DNA of 29,066 bases, taken from positions 1 to 29,066 of the IMG/VR virus record IMGVR_UViG_3300042549_002214; one strand, given 5' to 3'. This DNA is from a virus. A program made the position numbers and the translations under genes. The notes below the pieces were generated by a model. The model was given only the letters and a program-made list of their open reading frames with translations, had not been told where the DNA came from and made no database searches. Of the stretch, positions 15,488-20,184 are shown piece by piece (within the stretch, counting starts at the first letter, position 1; every line of letters begins with the position of its first letter).

Positions 15488-15535
15488 TTGTAACTATATT
15501 AAAAAGAATAACGTATATTTGTCAAAACAATTAAA
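15488..15535 (+). promoter_or_regulatory. Early promoter 1 with 16-bp operator
   Basis: TTG (15488-15490), a 23-nt spacer, and the -7 box TATATTTG (15514-15521). TATATTAAAAAGAATA fills 15495-15510, three bases before the -7 box. The leader contains AAACAATTAAA (15525-15535). It drives the seven small genes from 15545. Confidence 0.75.
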
Positions 15536-15868: not shown

Positions 15869-16096
15869 ATGAAAGCAAAACACGTAACAGTTCAATTCGA
15901 ATATACTAACTTCGATACTTTGGAAATAATGTTAGATAGGTTAAAGTCCGAGTTAATGGAGGGCAAGGAATTCTTTGAGGATATGCAGATGTCCCCAAAT
16001 GGTCAAAAGTTCTATATACATTTTAAACAGGAATACAAAAGAAAGCGTAATTTTAAAATAGAAGAAAACGTAATTTTAGTAAAATCAAAAATATGA
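15869..16096 (+). CDS. Small early protein, unknown (75 aa)
   Basis: This 75-aa protein begins at the ATG at 15869, 1 nt after the previous stop. A longer frame from 15794 overlaps the upstream gene and is not needed. The layout is strand (KAKHVTVQFEY), helix (LEIMLDRLKSELMEGKEFF), then strands (KFYIHFKQEYKRKR), ending in a basic stretch. This beta-alpha-beta order is compatible with a ferredoxin-like small regulator. No recognised family. Confidence 0.6.
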   Translation: MKAKHVTVQFEYTNFDTLEIMLDRLKSELMEGKEFFEDMQMSPNGQKFYIHFKQEYKRKRNFKIEENVILVKSKI

Positions 16097-16275
16097 AAGC
16101 AGCAGAAGAAGCCCGAAACTTAGTTGAGCATTTTTGTTTTAAGTTAGGAATTAAAGATTACCAAAAGGCAAAATATTGCGCTATTTATTTGTCGCATATG
16201 TTAATTATGGAAACTTTGGACGTGGTTCGAATTAAGCACTGGAAAGAAGTTGTATCGGAAATCGAAAAATTATGA
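16093..16275 (+). CDS. Small helical early protein, member A of a duplicated pair (60 aa)
   Basis: This 60-aa helical protein opens KAAEEARNLVEHF, has QKAKYCAIYLSHMLIM in the middle, and ends WKEVVSEIEKL. The pattern (A-x-x-L-V-x-x-F, A-K-x-C-A, W-x-E-V-x-x-E-I-E-K-L) matches a small family I know from many Bacteroidota phages and prophages. The next gene has the same plan, including the same EIEKL end, so they are probably an old tandem duplication. It overlaps both neighbours by 4 nt. Function unknown. Confidence 0.62.
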   Translation: MKAAEEARNLVEHFCFKLGIKDYQKAKYCAIYLSHMLIMETLDVVRIKHWKEVVSEIEKL

Positions 16276-16502
16276 GCCCAAAAGATACTGCCAACGAATT
16301 AATTGACACTTACAGAGCTATGCTAATGAATGAGGACACTGAATGTGGTAATGAAATACTTTGTACTCTTATAGCTAAAAAAAGCGCGTTAATTTCGATT
16401 AATCAAATTAAGTTTTTTCATGAGAGTTTATTTTTCGTTAATGAGGGCAGCTTGTTTGATGACTATTTAAACAAAGTAAAAGACGAAATAGAAAAGTTAT
16501 GA
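16272..16502 (+). CDS. Small helical early protein, member B of a duplicated pair (76 aa)
   Basis: This 76-aa protein opens SPKDTANELIDTYRAMLM, has an ILCTLIAKKSALISINQI middle and ends YLNKVKDEIEKL. It parallels the preceding 60-aa protein in length of helices and shares its last five residues. It appears to keep the family's TPKxxAxELxxxF start better than member A. ATGA overlaps join it to the genes on both sides, so stoichiometric co-translation with member A is likely. Confidence 0.62.
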   Translation: MSPKDTANELIDTYRAMLMNEDTECGNEILCTLIAKKSALISINQIKFFHESLFFVNEGSLFDDYLNKVKDEIEKL

Positions 16503-16678
16503 AAAAATATAAAGTTTGGTTAGAAGATTCAGTTGAGCCATTAGGTGGTTTTTGGTGGCATTGTTATTTAGATGAAAATGGCTGTTTGCAGGATAACGAA
16601 CTAAAAGACGAAACACCCGACACGTTACAATGGCATTTAGATAATGGATATATAGTTATTGAAGATGAAAGTATTTAA
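16499..16678 (+). CDS. Small acidic Trp-rich protein, unknown (59 aa)
   Basis: This 59-aa frame is read from an ATGA overlap with the preceding gene and was identified from the sequence itself. It opens MKKYKVWLEDSVEPLGGFWWHCY and continues with LDENGCLQDNELKDETPD. There are five Trp or Tyr near the N-terminus and a net acidic charge with many Asp and Glu. Small, strongly acidic, aromatic phage proteins are sometimes DNA mimics or anti-defence proteins; that is a possibility here and nothing more. The last 14 nt overlap the next small gene. Confidence 0.55.
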   Translation: MKKYKVWLEDSVEPLGGFWWHCYLDENGCLQDNELKDETPDTLQWHLDNGYIVIEDESI

Positions 16679-16781
16679 ACTATACAACCCTAAACAAAAG
16701 ATAGACTACCGTAAAATAAAGCGGTGGAAGATTCGAGTTAATATATCAAATAATTATTTTAAGAATTTTGAGTTTGATTAA
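16665..16781 (+). CDS. Small basic protein, last gene of the early cluster (38 aa)
   Basis: This 38-aa frame overlaps the end of the 59-aa gene by 14 nt. It is strongly basic (KQKIDYRKIKRWKIRVN) and ends in NYFKNFEFD. The charge is opposite to that of its upstream neighbour, so they could interact. No family is recognised. The short length lowers confidence, although the ATG position and the lack of other coding content in the interval support it. Confidence 0.4.
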   Translation: MKVFKLYNPKQKIDYRKIKRWKIRVNISNNYFKNFEFD

Positions 16782-16800
16782 AAAATAATTGTTATATTTG
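16768..16800 (+). promoter_or_regulatory. Promoter of the structured RNA
   Basis: The -7 box is TATATTTG (16793-16800). There are two candidate upstream TTG triplets: 16768-16770 (22-nt spacer) and 16774-16776 (16-nt spacer). Unlike the four operator-bearing early promoters it lacks the 16-bp element, so it should be regulated differently. Confidence 0.7.
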
Positions 16801-16805
16801 TAAAC

Positions 16806-16897
16806 GGTTCCATCTGACATTATACGAACCTAAAGAAGTTATTAGCCTTTTAAATGAATGCGAAGTCAGATGCGCAGGATTTTGAAAGGCTTTTTTT
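16806..16897 (+). ncRNA. Candidate structured RNA with kissing loops and terminator
   Basis: GGTTC (16806-16810) pairs with GAACC (16826-16830) around a 15-nt loop that contains CATCTGAC (16811-16818). TGCG (16859-16862) pairs with CGCA (16873-16876) around a 10-nt loop that contains GTCAGATG (16865-16872), the exact complement of CATCTGAC. The second hairpin lies in the loop of a longer stem, AGCCTTTT (16844-16851) with GAAAGGCT (16884-16891), which runs into a T tract. An 8-bp loop-loop (kissing) interaction is therefore possible. It starts just after a host-type promoter and ends at a terminator, as a discrete RNA of about 90 nt or as an attenuating leader for 16919. I see no known riboswitch class. 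The 17-aa frame at 16854 is an alternative reading. Confidence 0.62.
16844..16897 (+). terminator. Terminator hairpin ending the structured RNA
   Basis: An 8-bp stem (16844-16851 / 16884-16891, one T-G pair) is followed by TTTTTTT (16891-16897). The loop is 32 nt and holds an inner hairpin, so the terminator can be modulated by the pairing of that inner loop. Confidence 0.7.
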
Positions 16898-16918
16898 ATT
16901 TACTTAATTTTTTAAGAT

Positions 16919-17095
16919 ATGCAATTTTTAATTAAAACACAAAATGAAGAAGGTGAAATAGAATTTTACAGAACAGGAGCTGGTGAATTAATGGTTTCAA
17001 TTATGAACGGTCATGGAACTAATTATTATACGTTGACTGAAAATGAAGTACAGGCTTTATTTGACTATATAAAATTGACAGATGAACGGATATGA
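16919..17095 (+). CDS. Small protein ahead of the replication gene, unknown (58 aa)
   Basis: This 58-aa protein is read from the ATG at 16919, downstream of the structured RNA and its terminator, and overlaps the replication gene start by 14 nt. The sequence is beta-like at the N-terminus (MQFLIKTQNEEGEIEFYRTG) and helical at the end (ENEVQALFDYIKL). A similar order of an edge strand and terminal helix is common in small phage regulators. Reaching it from the RNA promoter requires read-through of the terminator, so it may be attenuated. No family recognised. Confidence 0.55.
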   Translation: MQFLIKTQNEEGEIEFYRTGAGELMVSIMNGHGTNYYTLTENEVQALFDYIKLTDERI

Positions 17096-17747
17096 ATTAA
17101 GTAGAAAATGGTTCGACTGGAGCTTTGAGAATCCAGAACGAATCAATCCAAACCATACGGCACTTTATTTTTTTATAATAGAACACTGTAATCGTTTAGG
17201 TTGGAAAGAGAAATTTGGACTACCAACAACAATGGCAAAAGAAGCTATTGGAATAAGAAGCTATAACACTTATATAAATACGTTGAATGATTTAGTTGAG
17301 TTTGGGTTTATAAACTTAATTGAAAAAAGCAAAAATCAGTATTCGAGTAACATAGTCGCCCTATCAAATTTTGATAAAGCACTTGATAATGCACTTGATA
17401 AAGCATTGATAAAGCACACGACAAAGCAAGGTGAAAGCATTAGTAGTATAGATAAACAAGAAACAAATAAACAAATAACAATAGAAGAACGTAAAAGCAA
17501 GTTTTACTCTTCGCTTTCTTTATTTGTAGATGAATATCCGAAACAAATGTTACGTGACTTTTTTAATTACTGGAGTGAACACGGAGAAAATGATAAAAAA
17601 CTTAGATTTGAAAAGGAAAAAACATTCGGTATTAAACAAAGGTTGTCAACGTGGCATAGTAGAAACCCAAAACAATATGAAACCGAAGGTATTTCACCTG
17701 AAGAACTAAAAGCAATTAAACTCGGATTCTTAAAACCTAAACAATGA
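17082..17747 (+). CDS. Replication initiator-like protein (lambda O / DnaD-like) with internal iterons (221 aa)
   Basis: This 221-aa protein has a winged-helix-like N-terminus (about residues 1-95): HTALYFFIIEHCNRLGW, GLPTTMAKEAIGI, then TYINTLNDLVEFGFINLIEKS, a recognition helix and wing order seen in phage replication-initiation proteins. A low-complexity linker (about 95-145) follows. The C-terminal domain (FFNYWSEHGENDKKLRFEKEKTFGIKQRLSTW) is a helicase-loader-like domain common beside phage helicases of Bacteroidota. The linker DNA contains five tandem iterons at 17371-17428, the same arrangement as lambda ori inside gene O. An ATPase gene follows with an ATGA overlap. The exact mechanism is inferred. 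Confidence 0.65.
   Translation: MNGYELSRKWFDWSFENPERINPNHTALYFFIIEHCNRLGWKEKFGLPTTMAKEAIGIRSYNTYINTLNDLVEFGFINLIEKSKNQYSSNIVALSNFDKALDNALDKALIKHTTKQGESISSIDKQETNKQITIEERKSKFYSSLSLFVDEYPKQMLRDFFNYWSEHGENDKKLRFEKEKTFGIKQRLSTWHSRNPKQYETEGISPEELKAIKLGFLKPKQ
17371..17428 (+). repeat. Five tandem iterons, candidate replication origin
   Basis: The direct repeats run head to tail: TTGATAAAGCAC (17371), TTGATAATGCAC (17383), TTGATAAAGCA (17395), TTGATAAAGCAC (17406) and a weaker ACGACAAAGCA (17418-17428). Unit lengths are 12, 12, 11, 12 and 11, so the third breaks the reading frame. This implies selection on DNA rather than on the peptide. An A/T-rich stretch (17440-17500) follows, suitable for unwinding. 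Confidence 0.65.
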
Positions 17748-18712
17748 TAACTAAAGAGGGCGACAGCTTACAATATTTACTTGACTATAAAGACGGTAAA
17801 ATAAAAGACGGATTAGCAATAGGTTGCGCATTAGATGAATACCTAAGATTTAAACCTAATCAATTAAACATAATTTTAGGACACGATAACGTCGGTAAAA
17901 CGTATTGGATAAACTGGTATTTCTTAACACTTGCTTTGCAGCATAATTTAAAGTTTTGTATTTGGAGCGGTGAAAATAAGAAAGCAACAATACTTAGGGA
18001 TTTAATTCAAATGTATTACGGAATAAGATTTAAGGATTTAACCTACGACCAAATAAGAATAGGAATGACCGTTCTTGAGCAACAATTTATATTTTTAAAT
18101 AATGCAGAACTTTACAAACCTAAGGAGCTTTTGGATTTCTTTAAAGAATCAGAATGTAACGTAGCATTGATTGACCCATTTACAGGTTTAGATAGGCAAA
18201 TGGATTTTCAAAGCAACTATACTTTTTTAAATAGCTGCAGAACTTATTGTAATAAATACGGAATTACAATTTACATAAACACGCACCCAAACAGCGAAAG
18301 CGGAAGGAGTGGAAACATTTACCAAGAAGGAGAATACAAAGGGCACTTAAAAGCCCCATTAAAAGACCATATTGAAGGCGGTAAGGCGTTTACAAATAGA
18401 TGTGACGATATGTTTGTAATACATCGTTTAGTAAAACATGAATCAATGAAATATGTGACGTGGGTAAATGTTGAAAAGGTAAAAGATACAGATACTGGCG
18501 GAAAACATACTGGATTGAATGACCCTATTTTTTGTGAATACAACTATGGATTAGGATTGAAAATAAACGGAGTTGACCCATTAGAAAAATTCAGACCAAA
18601 AATATCAAATAGTTTTCCTGTTAAACAACTTCCTTTGAATGAGCCTGATATAGTAAACGGAAAAGAATTGATACCTTTCAGCCAAAAAATGAATCAACAA
18701 ACACCTTTTTAA
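17744..18712 (+). CDS. RecA/DnaB-fold ATPase, probable replicative helicase (322 aa)
   Basis: This 322-aa protein has a clear P-loop, GHDNVGKT (46-53), and a Walker B segment, NVALIDPF, with Asp144. It lacks an N-terminal primase or DnaB linker domain. LKFCIWSGENKK after the first strand and ITIYINTHP at about residue 185 match RecA/DnaB-like motor folds, including a sensor-type His. A helicase role in the phage replisome follows from its position directly behind the initiator-like gene (ATGA overlap). The C-terminal 60 residues are a divergent tail. A recombinase/ATPase role is the main alternative. Confidence 0.75.
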   Translation: MITKEGDSLQYLLDYKDGKIKDGLAIGCALDEYLRFKPNQLNIILGHDNVGKTYWINWYFLTLALQHNLKFCIWSGENKKATILRDLIQMYYGIRFKDLTYDQIRIGMTVLEQQFIFLNNAELYKPKELLDFFKESECNVALIDPFTGLDRQMDFQSNYTFLNSCRTYCNKYGITIYINTHPNSESGRSGNIYQEGEYKGHLKAPLKDHIEGGKAFTNRCDDMFVIHRLVKHESMKYVTWVNVEKVKDTDTGGKHTGLNDPIFCEYNYGLGLKINGVDPLEKFRPKISNSFPVKQLPLNEPDIVNGKELIPFSQKMNQQTPF

Positions 18713-18714
18713 TT

Positions 18715-19008
18715 ATGAATGAACTAACTATTATATCAGGCAAAGTAAACTTAGACACTACCTATTTAAAGATTAAAATTAGCCTTGAGGATATTAAAGA
18801 AAAACACGGACAAAGAACCGATTTAATTAATTCAATGGAGCGTAGCTTAGCAGACTTACAACAAGTTAAAATTAGTTACGATGCAATGGAAAAAGAATTA
18901 AGGGCAGCACTACAGCAAAACTTCAGACTTGAAAAGCTATTAATGGAGGAGAAGTTTAAAAACAAAGACTTGCAAGCTCAATTAAATTTTAAAAATATTG
19001 AATTATGA
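18715..19008 (+). CDS. Coiled-coil protein, unknown (97 aa)
   Basis: This 97-aa protein consists almost entirely of heptad-like helix. ISLEDIKEKHGQRTDLINSM and MEKELRAALQQNFRLEKLL carry Leu and Ile at a/d positions and an abundance of charged residues. There are no membrane segments. It starts 3 nt after the helicase gene and ends in an ATGA overlap with the methyltransferase gene. It could be a structural partner of the replication proteins. Function unknown. Confidence 0.6.
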   Translation: MNELTIISGKVNLDTTYLKIKISLEDIKEKHGQRTDLINSMERSLADLQQVKISYDAMEKELRAALQQNFRLEKLLMEEKFKNKDLQAQLNFKNIEL

Positions 19009-19673
19009 AATATAGGATTTTAAATTTATATGCGTGTTTAGGTGGCAACCGTTACAAATGGGATGAGGTAGCCGAAAACTTAGAAATAACAGCCGTTGAA
19101 CTTGACCCCGAAGCAGCACGTTTATATAAAGAGCGATTCCCAAAAGACGAAGTAATAGTAGCAGACGCACACCAATATTTATTAGACCATTATAAGGAGT
19201 TTGATTTTATTTGGAGCAGCCCACCGTGTCCGACACATAGCAAAGCAAGATTTTGGGGGAGTAAAGGCGGGCAATGCGATGTTGTTTACCCTGAAATGGG
19301 GTTGTATCAGGAAATAATATTTTTACAAAACTTTTTTAACGGCAAGTATTGTGTTGAAAATGTAAATGGGTATTATGAACCATTAATACCGGCTCAAAAA
19401 AGAGGAAGACATTTGTATTGGAGCAACTTTACATTGCCAAATATAATAAGTAAAAGGTTTGATGTGGCTATTAAAAGAGGAAAAAATGAATTAAAAAATC
19501 TCTGTGAATTTCATGAATACGATTTTTCACAATATAAAGGTGAACAGCCAAAGGTTAAAATGGCACGTAACTTGGTAGACTTCGAAGCAGGTAAAACAAT
19601 ACTTGAAACAGCGTTAAACATTTACAGAAAGACGAATATAAACCAAACTTCAATCTTTGATTATGAGGTGTAA
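19005..19673 (+). CDS. Compact cytosine-5 DNA methyltransferase (222 aa)
   Basis: The core motifs of C5 methyltransferases are present: motif I as LNLYACLGGNR (6-16), motif IV as SSPPCPTHS with catalytic Cys75 in PCP, motif VI as CVENV (116-120, Glu118), and motif VIII as QKRGRHLYW (131-139). At 222 aa it is shorter than most family members (usually over 300), and there is little room for a large target-recognition domain between motifs VIII and X. It should transfer a methyl group to cytosine in phage or host DNA. No partner nuclease gene is next to it, so it probably protects the phage from host restriction. Its target site cannot be read. Confidence 0.75.
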   Translation: MKYRILNLYACLGGNRYKWDEVAENLEITAVELDPEAARLYKERFPKDEVIVADAHQYLLDHYKEFDFIWSSPPCPTHSKARFWGSKGGQCDVVYPEMGLYQEIIFLQNFFNGKYCVENVNGYYEPLIPAQKRGRHLYWSNFTLPNIISKRFDVAIKRGKNELKNLCEFHEYDFSQYKGEQPKVKMARNLVDFEAGKTILETALNIYRKTNINQTSIFDYEV

Positions 19674-20184
19674 AAACTGCAAAGAGAAATTTGAGCCGAA
19701 AACATTTCTCCAAAAATATTGCTTAAAAGAACAATGTTTACGTGTTTTTGTAGCTGATGTAAAACAGAAAACTTGGCAAAAAACAAGAGCCAAAGCGAAG
19801 CTGGATTTAATGACTTTGAGTGACTACCTTAAATTAACTCAACAAGTGTTTAATAAATACATTCGACTCCGAGACAAAGACGAACTATGTATATCATGCC
19901 AAAATCCACCAAAAAAACAAAACGCTGGGCACTATTTTTCAAGTGGTGGTCATTCAAATGTAAGGTTTGATGAGGATAATGTACACCTACAATGTGAACA
20001 CTGCAATACTTTTTTGAGTGGCAATCTTTTGAACTACCAAATAGAAATAGAAAAACGAATCGGAGCTGAAAAACTAATCGAATTACAGGCAAAAGCACAC
20101 GTTGTTAAAAAATGGAGTATTGATGAGTTAAAACAATTAATGATTATTTATAAAAATAAAATAAAAGAAATAGACCTATATTAA
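19663..20184 (+). CDS. ninG: NinG / Rap-like recombination protein (173 aa)
   Basis: This 173-aa protein has an N-terminal zinc motif (MRCKNCKEKFEPK..YC..C). A C-terminal HNH-like segment contains CISCQNPPKK, NAGHYFSSGGHSNVRFDEDN, then LQCEHCN and NLLNYQIEIEKRIG. This Cys/His order is that of lambda NinG (Rap), which binds branched DNA and aids RecF- and RecBCD-pathway exchange. I chose the ATG at 19663 over the TTG at 19657 because it is a normal start and still overlaps the methyltransferase stop. The neighbouring ERF and exonuclease genes make a recombination role fitting. Confidence 0.78.
   Translation: MRCKNCKEKFEPKTFLQKYCLKEQCLRVFVADVKQKTWQKTRAKAKLDLMTLSDYLKLTQQVFNKYIRLRDKDELCISCQNPPKKQNAGHYFSSGGHSNVRFDEDNVHLQCEHCNTFLSGNLLNYQIEIEKRIGAEKLIELQAKAHVVKKWSIDELKQLMIIYKNKIKEIDLY

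Follow-up and report, generated by a model that had tools for sequence, protein, structure and literature searches.

A kissing-loop RNA with its own promoter and terminator, possibly a leader of the replication genes, in phages of Flavobacterium and Polaribacter

Introduction

The gap between two small ORFs at positions 16782-16918 of a 29,066-bp phage record (the whole stretch analysed, hereafter the window) raises the question of what a promoter, two hairpins with complementary loops and a terminator are doing immediately ahead of a set of replication genes. The window encodes a terminase, an Erf-type recombinase, a replication-initiator-like protein and a primase/helicase. A sequence-only reading had proposed that the gap holds a small RNA matching no known riboswitch class, transcribed from a host-type promoter, in which loop-loop pairing could toggle termination, and which might be a regulatory leader, a free phage RNA or an RNA pairing with a host transcript. 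Here we examine these proposals by comparison with homologues in phages and with host genomes.

Results

Reading the sequence directly confirmed the kissing hairpins, the promoter and the terminator inside the gap (Table 1). From 5′ to 3′ the element is composed of the promoter, P1, kissing strand a, the loop tail, P1′, the linker J, P2, the internal loop, P3, kissing strand b, P3′, P2′ and the U-run, with two unpaired bases between the P3 5′ strand and strand b. The minimum free energy structure of the window RNA is the nested fold (−22.6 kcal/mol, z = −2.7, matched by 2 of 200 shuffles), to which the kiss duplex would add about −10 kcal/mol, and of 3000 dinucleotide-shuffled versions of the segment only 1 reached the same architecture score. 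As the earlier reading had proposed, the 3′ part is an intrinsic terminator, with an 11-bp covarying stem directly followed by T7, and a T-run lies 3′ of the stem in nearly all homologues; a generic terminator scan (loops of 3-8 nt) did not list it because its loop, longer than 8 nt, is the nested hairpin itself. A coding role for the segment, with a leader peptide starting at the ATG at 16854, was discarded since this frame is not conserved and, in one homologue (L128), runs for only four codons before a stop. On the minus strand, a search restricted to the TAnnTTTG promoter type revealed no antisense promoter near 16782-16918.

Table 1. Positions of the kissing-loop RNA, its parts and the adjoining genes in the window
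Feature	Position	Strand	Remarks
Upstream small ORF, 38 aa, stopping 11 nt 5′ of the −7 element	16665..16781	+	Read from the sequence
Bacteroidota-type −7 promoter element TATATTTG	16793..16800	+	Conserved upstream of homologues
Predicted RNA, ~93 nt (about 95)	16805..16897	+	Ends placed by means of the promoter (5′) and the terminator (3′)
P1 5′ strand GGTTC	16806..16810	+	5/5 P1 pairs co-vary
Kissing strand a CATCTGAC, immediately 3′ of the P1 5′ strand	16811..16818	+	Partner is 16865-16872
Loop-1 3′ tail ATTATAC (consensus AYNATA)	16819..16825	+	Conserved unpaired segment
P1 3′ strand GAACC	16826..16830	+	Co-varying pairs
Linker J TAAAGAAGTTATT, consensus AAAGNNNUUAUU, 12-13 nt	16831..16843	+	109 parsed homologues
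P2 (terminator stem) 5′ strand AGCCTTTTAAA	16844..16854	+	Double changes in 9/10 counted P2 pairs
Internal loop, 5′ side UGAA	16855..16858	+	UGAA in 105/109
P3 5′ strand TGCG	16859..16862	+	4/4 pairs co-vary
Kissing strand b GTCAGATG, immediately 5′ of the P3 3′ strand	16865..16872	+	Pairs with strand a
P3 3′ strand CGCA	16873..16876	+	Co-varying pairs
Internal loop, 3′ side GGAU	16877..16880	+	GGAU in 92/109
P2 (terminator stem) 3′ strand TTTGAAAGGCT	16881..16891	+	Co-varying pairs
Terminator U-run T7, first T doubling as last paired base	16891..16897	+	Read from the sequence
First ORF 3′ of the terminator, 58 aa, beginning 21 nt past the U-run	16919..17095	+	ORF list
Replication-initiator-like protein	17082..17747	+	Weak PHROG matches
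Replicative primase/helicase-type ATPase	17744..18712	+	PHROG DNA primase/helicase, 1e-18

Candidate loci were collected by means of the helicase and initiator proteins, and about 80 of these proved to contain the RNA when searched by blastn with the intergenic segment; homologues are now known from more than 100 phage contigs. Their alignment displays compensating changes in all helices. Among 30 homologues, 97.4% of the cells were paired versus 73.8% after shuffling, the covariation score was 0.690 versus 0.222 (0/500), and 22 of the 27 pairs had changed on both sides; sliding the partners by a single column made all these measures collapse. A covariance model built on the nested helices alone, with the kiss left out, was run against the loci, and in the 80 distinct sequences aligned by this kiss-free model the kiss helix was 95% paired, with six of its eight pairs double-changed. 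The covariance model R1 matches the window at 16801-16896 (104.6 bits, E 1.4e-19).

A second parse, blind to complementarity, compared the first eight bases of loop 1 with the last eight of loop 3 and gave a perfect 8/8 kiss in fixed register in 97 of 109 parsed RNAs, the rest being mostly one base off register in the parsing (for example GAGTCTCA/TGAGACTC). All parsed RNAs of this first type (type I) display 22 distinct perfect 8-mer pairs, or kissing alleles. The compensating loop changes that the earlier reading had called for in related phages are therefore strongly present. Helix sequences vary freely among the 109 parsed homologues, in which P1 has 5-6 bp, P2 about 11 bp and P3 4-5 bp, and what is conserved is J, the loop tail and the internal loop.

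The family extends beyond these sequences. An architecture scanner, which asks for a promoter and for complementarity of the P1 loop to a terminator hairpin's apical loop, detected about 200 places with a score of 32 or more in phage loci, versus one in reversed sequence and none in host loci. It also exposed a second type (type II), in which the loops measure 6-8 nt and the internal loop, AGUA/GAAA, resembles the loop-E (bulged-G) motif. Locus L228:4579, which combines an 8-nt type-I kiss with a type-II AGUA/GAA loop, links the two types. A pattern specifying only the type-II promoter, internal loop and P3, with the loop sequence left free, matched 109 stretches in viral contigs. Of 81 unique examples, 80 had 6 or more bases of the unspecified loop pairing with the 5′ loop, a level reached by 3 of 83 shuffled loops. 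Type II comprises 28 kissing alleles, and in its commonest geometry one unpaired base lies 5′ of the kiss and none 3′. Complementary apical loops kept by compensatory change, as expected of a kissing-loop RNA, thus occur in both types. At the level of sequence, these dozens of loop pairs, altered on both sides so as to stay matched, show that the kiss matters.

The promoter proved to be of the host type, as had been proposed, its TA being conserved in 99% and its TTTG in 99-100% of the sequences upstream of 134 homologues, with no conserved TTG at a fixed −33 position. Intergenic TAnnTTTG promoters in the early region of the window include those at 15514, 16793, 20195, 20627 and 22862. The one at 16793 is the sole intergenic example between 15514 and 20195, and hence the replication genes at 16919-20184 sit behind the terminator of the RNA. 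These genes, with an initiator-like protein and a primase/helicase among them, bear out the proposed position before replication functions. The best PHROG match of the 17082-17747 product is phrog_19415, of unknown function, and its weak matches include replication initiation O-like (0.0012) and replication initiation protein (0.0099). Other promoters of the window differ from that of the RNA: TATATTAAAAAGAATA is found 5′ of TAnnTTTG at three of the positions 15514, 20195, 20627 and 22862, and a leader AAACAATTAAA precedes the ATG downstream of all four. Neither sequence is present at the promoter of the RNA, an indication that promoters of two classes exist in this phage. Further upstream, the adjacent small ORFs at 16093-16275 and 16272-16502 both match phrog_21441 and are probably a tandem duplication.

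In deduplicated contexts a same-strand ORF typically starts 18-22 nt past the RNA, so that the RNA occupies the 5′ leader position of a gene that it could regulate. A search with only the RNA pattern, hence without selection for neighbours, yielded 94 type-I loci with 1.5 kb or more of downstream sequence. In 76 of these, the first 1.3 kb behind the RNA contains a gene of the replication-initiator type, a class partly seeded with proteins from downstream of the RNA and partly defined by weak PHROG matches; some of the seed proteins match replication PHROGs clearly (a DnaD-like helicase loader at 7e-32) and some weakly. For type II (64 loci) the downstream genes are of the replication-initiator type in 24 cases, HNH/NUMOD4 endonucleases in 12 and ParB-like in 4, and about one third of the copies are followed by a gene of no recognised class.

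Several features of these neighbourhoods deserve mention. Initiators behind type-I RNAs look modular, with varied N-terminal domains (MNGYDL.., MKRDSM.., MREGFN.., MSKELP..) joined to a common phrog_19415-like C-terminal region. A distance of about 11 nt often separates a type-II RNA from a following NUMOD4/HNH homing-endonuclease gene (L505, L515, L533, L548, L549, L569 and others), and a few type-II RNAs precede GIY-YIG-like genes (L538, L556, L590). In some phages there are two kissing RNAs, each with its own loop pair (L132/L134, at 2576 and 4297; L235-L239, L152, L157, L283, L349), the second copy being located in several cases before ParB-like/methyltransferase genes (MLEIKEEFKKLIP) or homing endonucleases.

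Four cultured phages carry the element. The initiator protein, together with the architecture scanner, led to these relatives; direct DNA similarity searches in cultured phages returned promoter or low-complexity matches only, or none. The element is located at 28564- in Polaribacter phage Danklef_1, at 33629- in Flavobacterium phage 11b, at about 37483-37585 of KM873719 in Flavobacterium phage FCL-2 and at 34469 on the minus strand of Polaribacter phage P12002L, with stem sequences unrelated to those of the window. In FCL-2 and P12002L it lies directly before a gene matching replication-initiation PHROGs, annotated as 'replication protein' in P12002L, and in 11b and Danklef a short ORF intervenes before a relative of the window's initiator. 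The scanner found no element in the searched parts of Riemerella PT33, Cellulophaga phi19:3 and phi38:1 and Bacteroides LoVEphage. Searching viral contigs for the literal pattern CATCTGAC..GTCAGATG gave matches that were mostly due to chance.

Host genomes were searched as well. The strict pattern had no match, and the loose one matched 89 stretches, none of them real according to the covariance model among the 80 listed. A search of 400 Flavobacterium genomes, run with stricter filters that could miss weak relatives, returned four weak matches, which were rejected: they lack kissing loops and are palindromes next to a recombinase-like gene. In these four genomes (L488-L491, near position 1500) a near-perfect palindrome of about 44 bp, ACCTTTTTAATGAGTAGAAGTTAACTTCTACTCATTAAAAAGGT, adjoins that gene. 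The type-II pattern was absent from 396 Bacteroidota genomes, and the positive control for the host search recovered 8 of 8 phage records. Overall, about 800 Bacteroidota genomes yielded no convincing copy, and the kissing RNA thus looks like a property of phages.

The proposal that the RNA belongs to no known class was upheld: Rfam 15 gave no gathering match in the window or in six type-II and cultured-phage loci, and a permissive search of the element returned chance matches only. A literature search, of incomplete coverage, found no earlier description of the RNA and no infection RNA-seq of FCL-2; the only FCL-2-related RNA-seq found was made without phage (PMC8092290). Judged on sequence comparison, this is a previously uncatalogued family of structured RNAs, of the terminated-leader or phage regulatory RNA kind, which no named family fits.

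Discussion

Our findings point, with slightly more confidence than doubt, to a terminated leader (attenuator) in front of the replication operon, from which a short RNA of about 93 nt would also be released. Host RNA polymerase would start at TATATTTG, at the 5′ end of a regulatory unit heading the operon, and synthesize a transcript made of the 5′ hairpin P1, the A/U-rich linker J and the terminator hairpin P2 with P3 nested in it. The P1 and P3 loops would pair over 8 bp in the same RNA, giving a compact, locked fold that includes the terminator. Such pairing within one molecule, as we infer it, is favoured by the fixed linker J, whose constant length and sequence fit an intramolecular fold. 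Most transcripts would probably end at the U-run as the ~93-nt RNA and the remaining ones read through into the replication-initiator genes, and in this manner the leader could set the amount or timing of replication proteins. Partial or regulated termination, its tuning by the kiss and the reading of any signal would be further properties of such a leader.

Comparison of homologues establishes the predicted helices, the kiss, the promoter, the terminator and the position on which the leader model builds. It is favoured by the covariation of kiss and stems, by the conservation of the promoter immediately 5′ of the RNA and by the identical placement in four cultured phages with unrelated stems, as well as by the start of the next ORF about 20 nt past the U-run, which leaves no room for another promoter. 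Against it, the genes downstream differ among copies, no alternative antiterminator pairing is conserved, and the dense arrangement of phage genomes may be enough to account for the gap of about 20 nt between RNA and ORF. Recurrence before other genes (HNH, ParB-like), sometimes within one phage, is nevertheless what would be expected of a reusable leader.

The main rival, which we regard as rather unlikely, is a stand-alone, fully terminated phage sRNA acting in trans on a host or phage protein, as decoy or scaffold, or on an mRNA, its position reflecting the synteny of packed genomes. All forms of the RNA have their own promoter and terminator, the downstream genes vary, the covarying fold is compact, and the conserved unpaired J and loop tail could offer a protein-binding surface. 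However, a free sRNA would leave the next genes without a promoter of their own and behind a terminator, unrelated phages have the RNA in the same place ahead of replication genes, and the conserved unpaired stretches are A/U-rich and thus poor for target pairing, so that the suggested pairing with a host transcript found no support either. Position and the lack of a nearer promoter favour the terminated leader over a free RNA. Markedly less probable is a kiss-gated switch, in which kissing and termination would be alternative outcomes set by kinetics or a ligand. The order of segments would allow the kiss to arise ahead of synthesis of the terminator's 3′ strand, and one hairpin is common to both structures, but P1, the kiss, P3 and the terminator stem are all mutually compatible and conserved together. 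Potential competing helices, formed by the 5′ part with one or the other strand of the terminator, were no longer than in shuffled sequences (5.6 versus 6.0 bp and 5.0 versus 5.1 bp), and the mutually exclusive terminator and antiterminator folds typical of riboswitches and attenuators were not found. The earlier idea that loop pairing toggles termination is thus unsupported in that form; the kiss leaves the terminator stem intact and would at most tune speed or stability.

Two further roles appear far less plausible. The association with replication initiators could suggest that the RNA itself takes part in replication, as a primer or at a transcription-activated origin beside the initiator gene. 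We consider this very unlikely, given that there is no GC-skew turn at 16.8 kb, that the RNA also precedes HNH and ParB-like genes and that a terminator lies directly at its end. Intermolecular kissing, by which RNAs would join as dimers or rings like the phi29 pRNA, seems more improbable still. Two complementary loops in one RNA would permit it, and paralogues within one phage differ in their loop pairs; such differences are expected anyway given the number of alleles, the linker is conserved in length and sequence as an intramolecular fold needs, and the RNA has no link to packaging genes.

Returning to the terminated leader, we put forward more tentatively a wider proposal, namely that this RNA represents a widespread new leader class of Bacteroidota phages with the terminator built into the kissing fold, serving as a common control before replication-initiator and other DNA-processing genes; RNA polymerase or a phage factor would recognise the fold rather than its sequence. 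Covariation is unusually strong (22 + 28 kissing alleles) for a recurrent structured RNA without an Rfam entry, and the RNA spans uncultured as well as cultured Flavobacterium and Polaribacter phages. These data point to RNA-level control of phage DNA replication, a subject that to our knowledge has been little studied outside E. coli phages. Since four cultured phages carry the RNA, including FCL-2 on Flavobacterium columnare, its function is directly testable.

Several known systems share parts of this design. The lysine riboswitch contains kissing loops and a loop-E motif. Kissing loops, a terminator and, in type II, the loop-E-like AGUA/GAAA internal loop recall it; here, in contrast, there is no multi-helix junction, the terminator lies inside the kissing hairpin and Rfam gives no match. 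The c4 antisense RNA (RF01695; PMC2864571) is likewise a small phage regulatory RNA, but it pairs with a separate target, and the window RNA does not match its Rfam family or any other. In phi29 pRNA and the far larger GOLLD and ROOL, which are also phage-linked, loop pairings build multimers (PMC12286853), whereas the present evidence favours pairing within one short RNA, which is not near packaging genes as would befit the pRNA of the phi29 packaging motor. Leader attenuation of plasmid rep genes (pT181, pIP501) and ColE1 RNAI/RNAII similarly place RNA structure with a terminator or kissing loops before replication functions; in the window, no antisense gene with a TAnnTTTG promoter is seen and both complementary loops belong to one RNA. 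In phage lambda, pR′, the 6S RNA and tR′ form a series of promoter, short RNA and terminator followed by an operon reached only by read-through. The window element has the same layout of promoter, short RNA, terminator and operon, with the differences that no antiterminator protein is known for it, that the short RNA is a conserved kissing-loop fold and that the genes behind it are early or replication genes rather than late ones.
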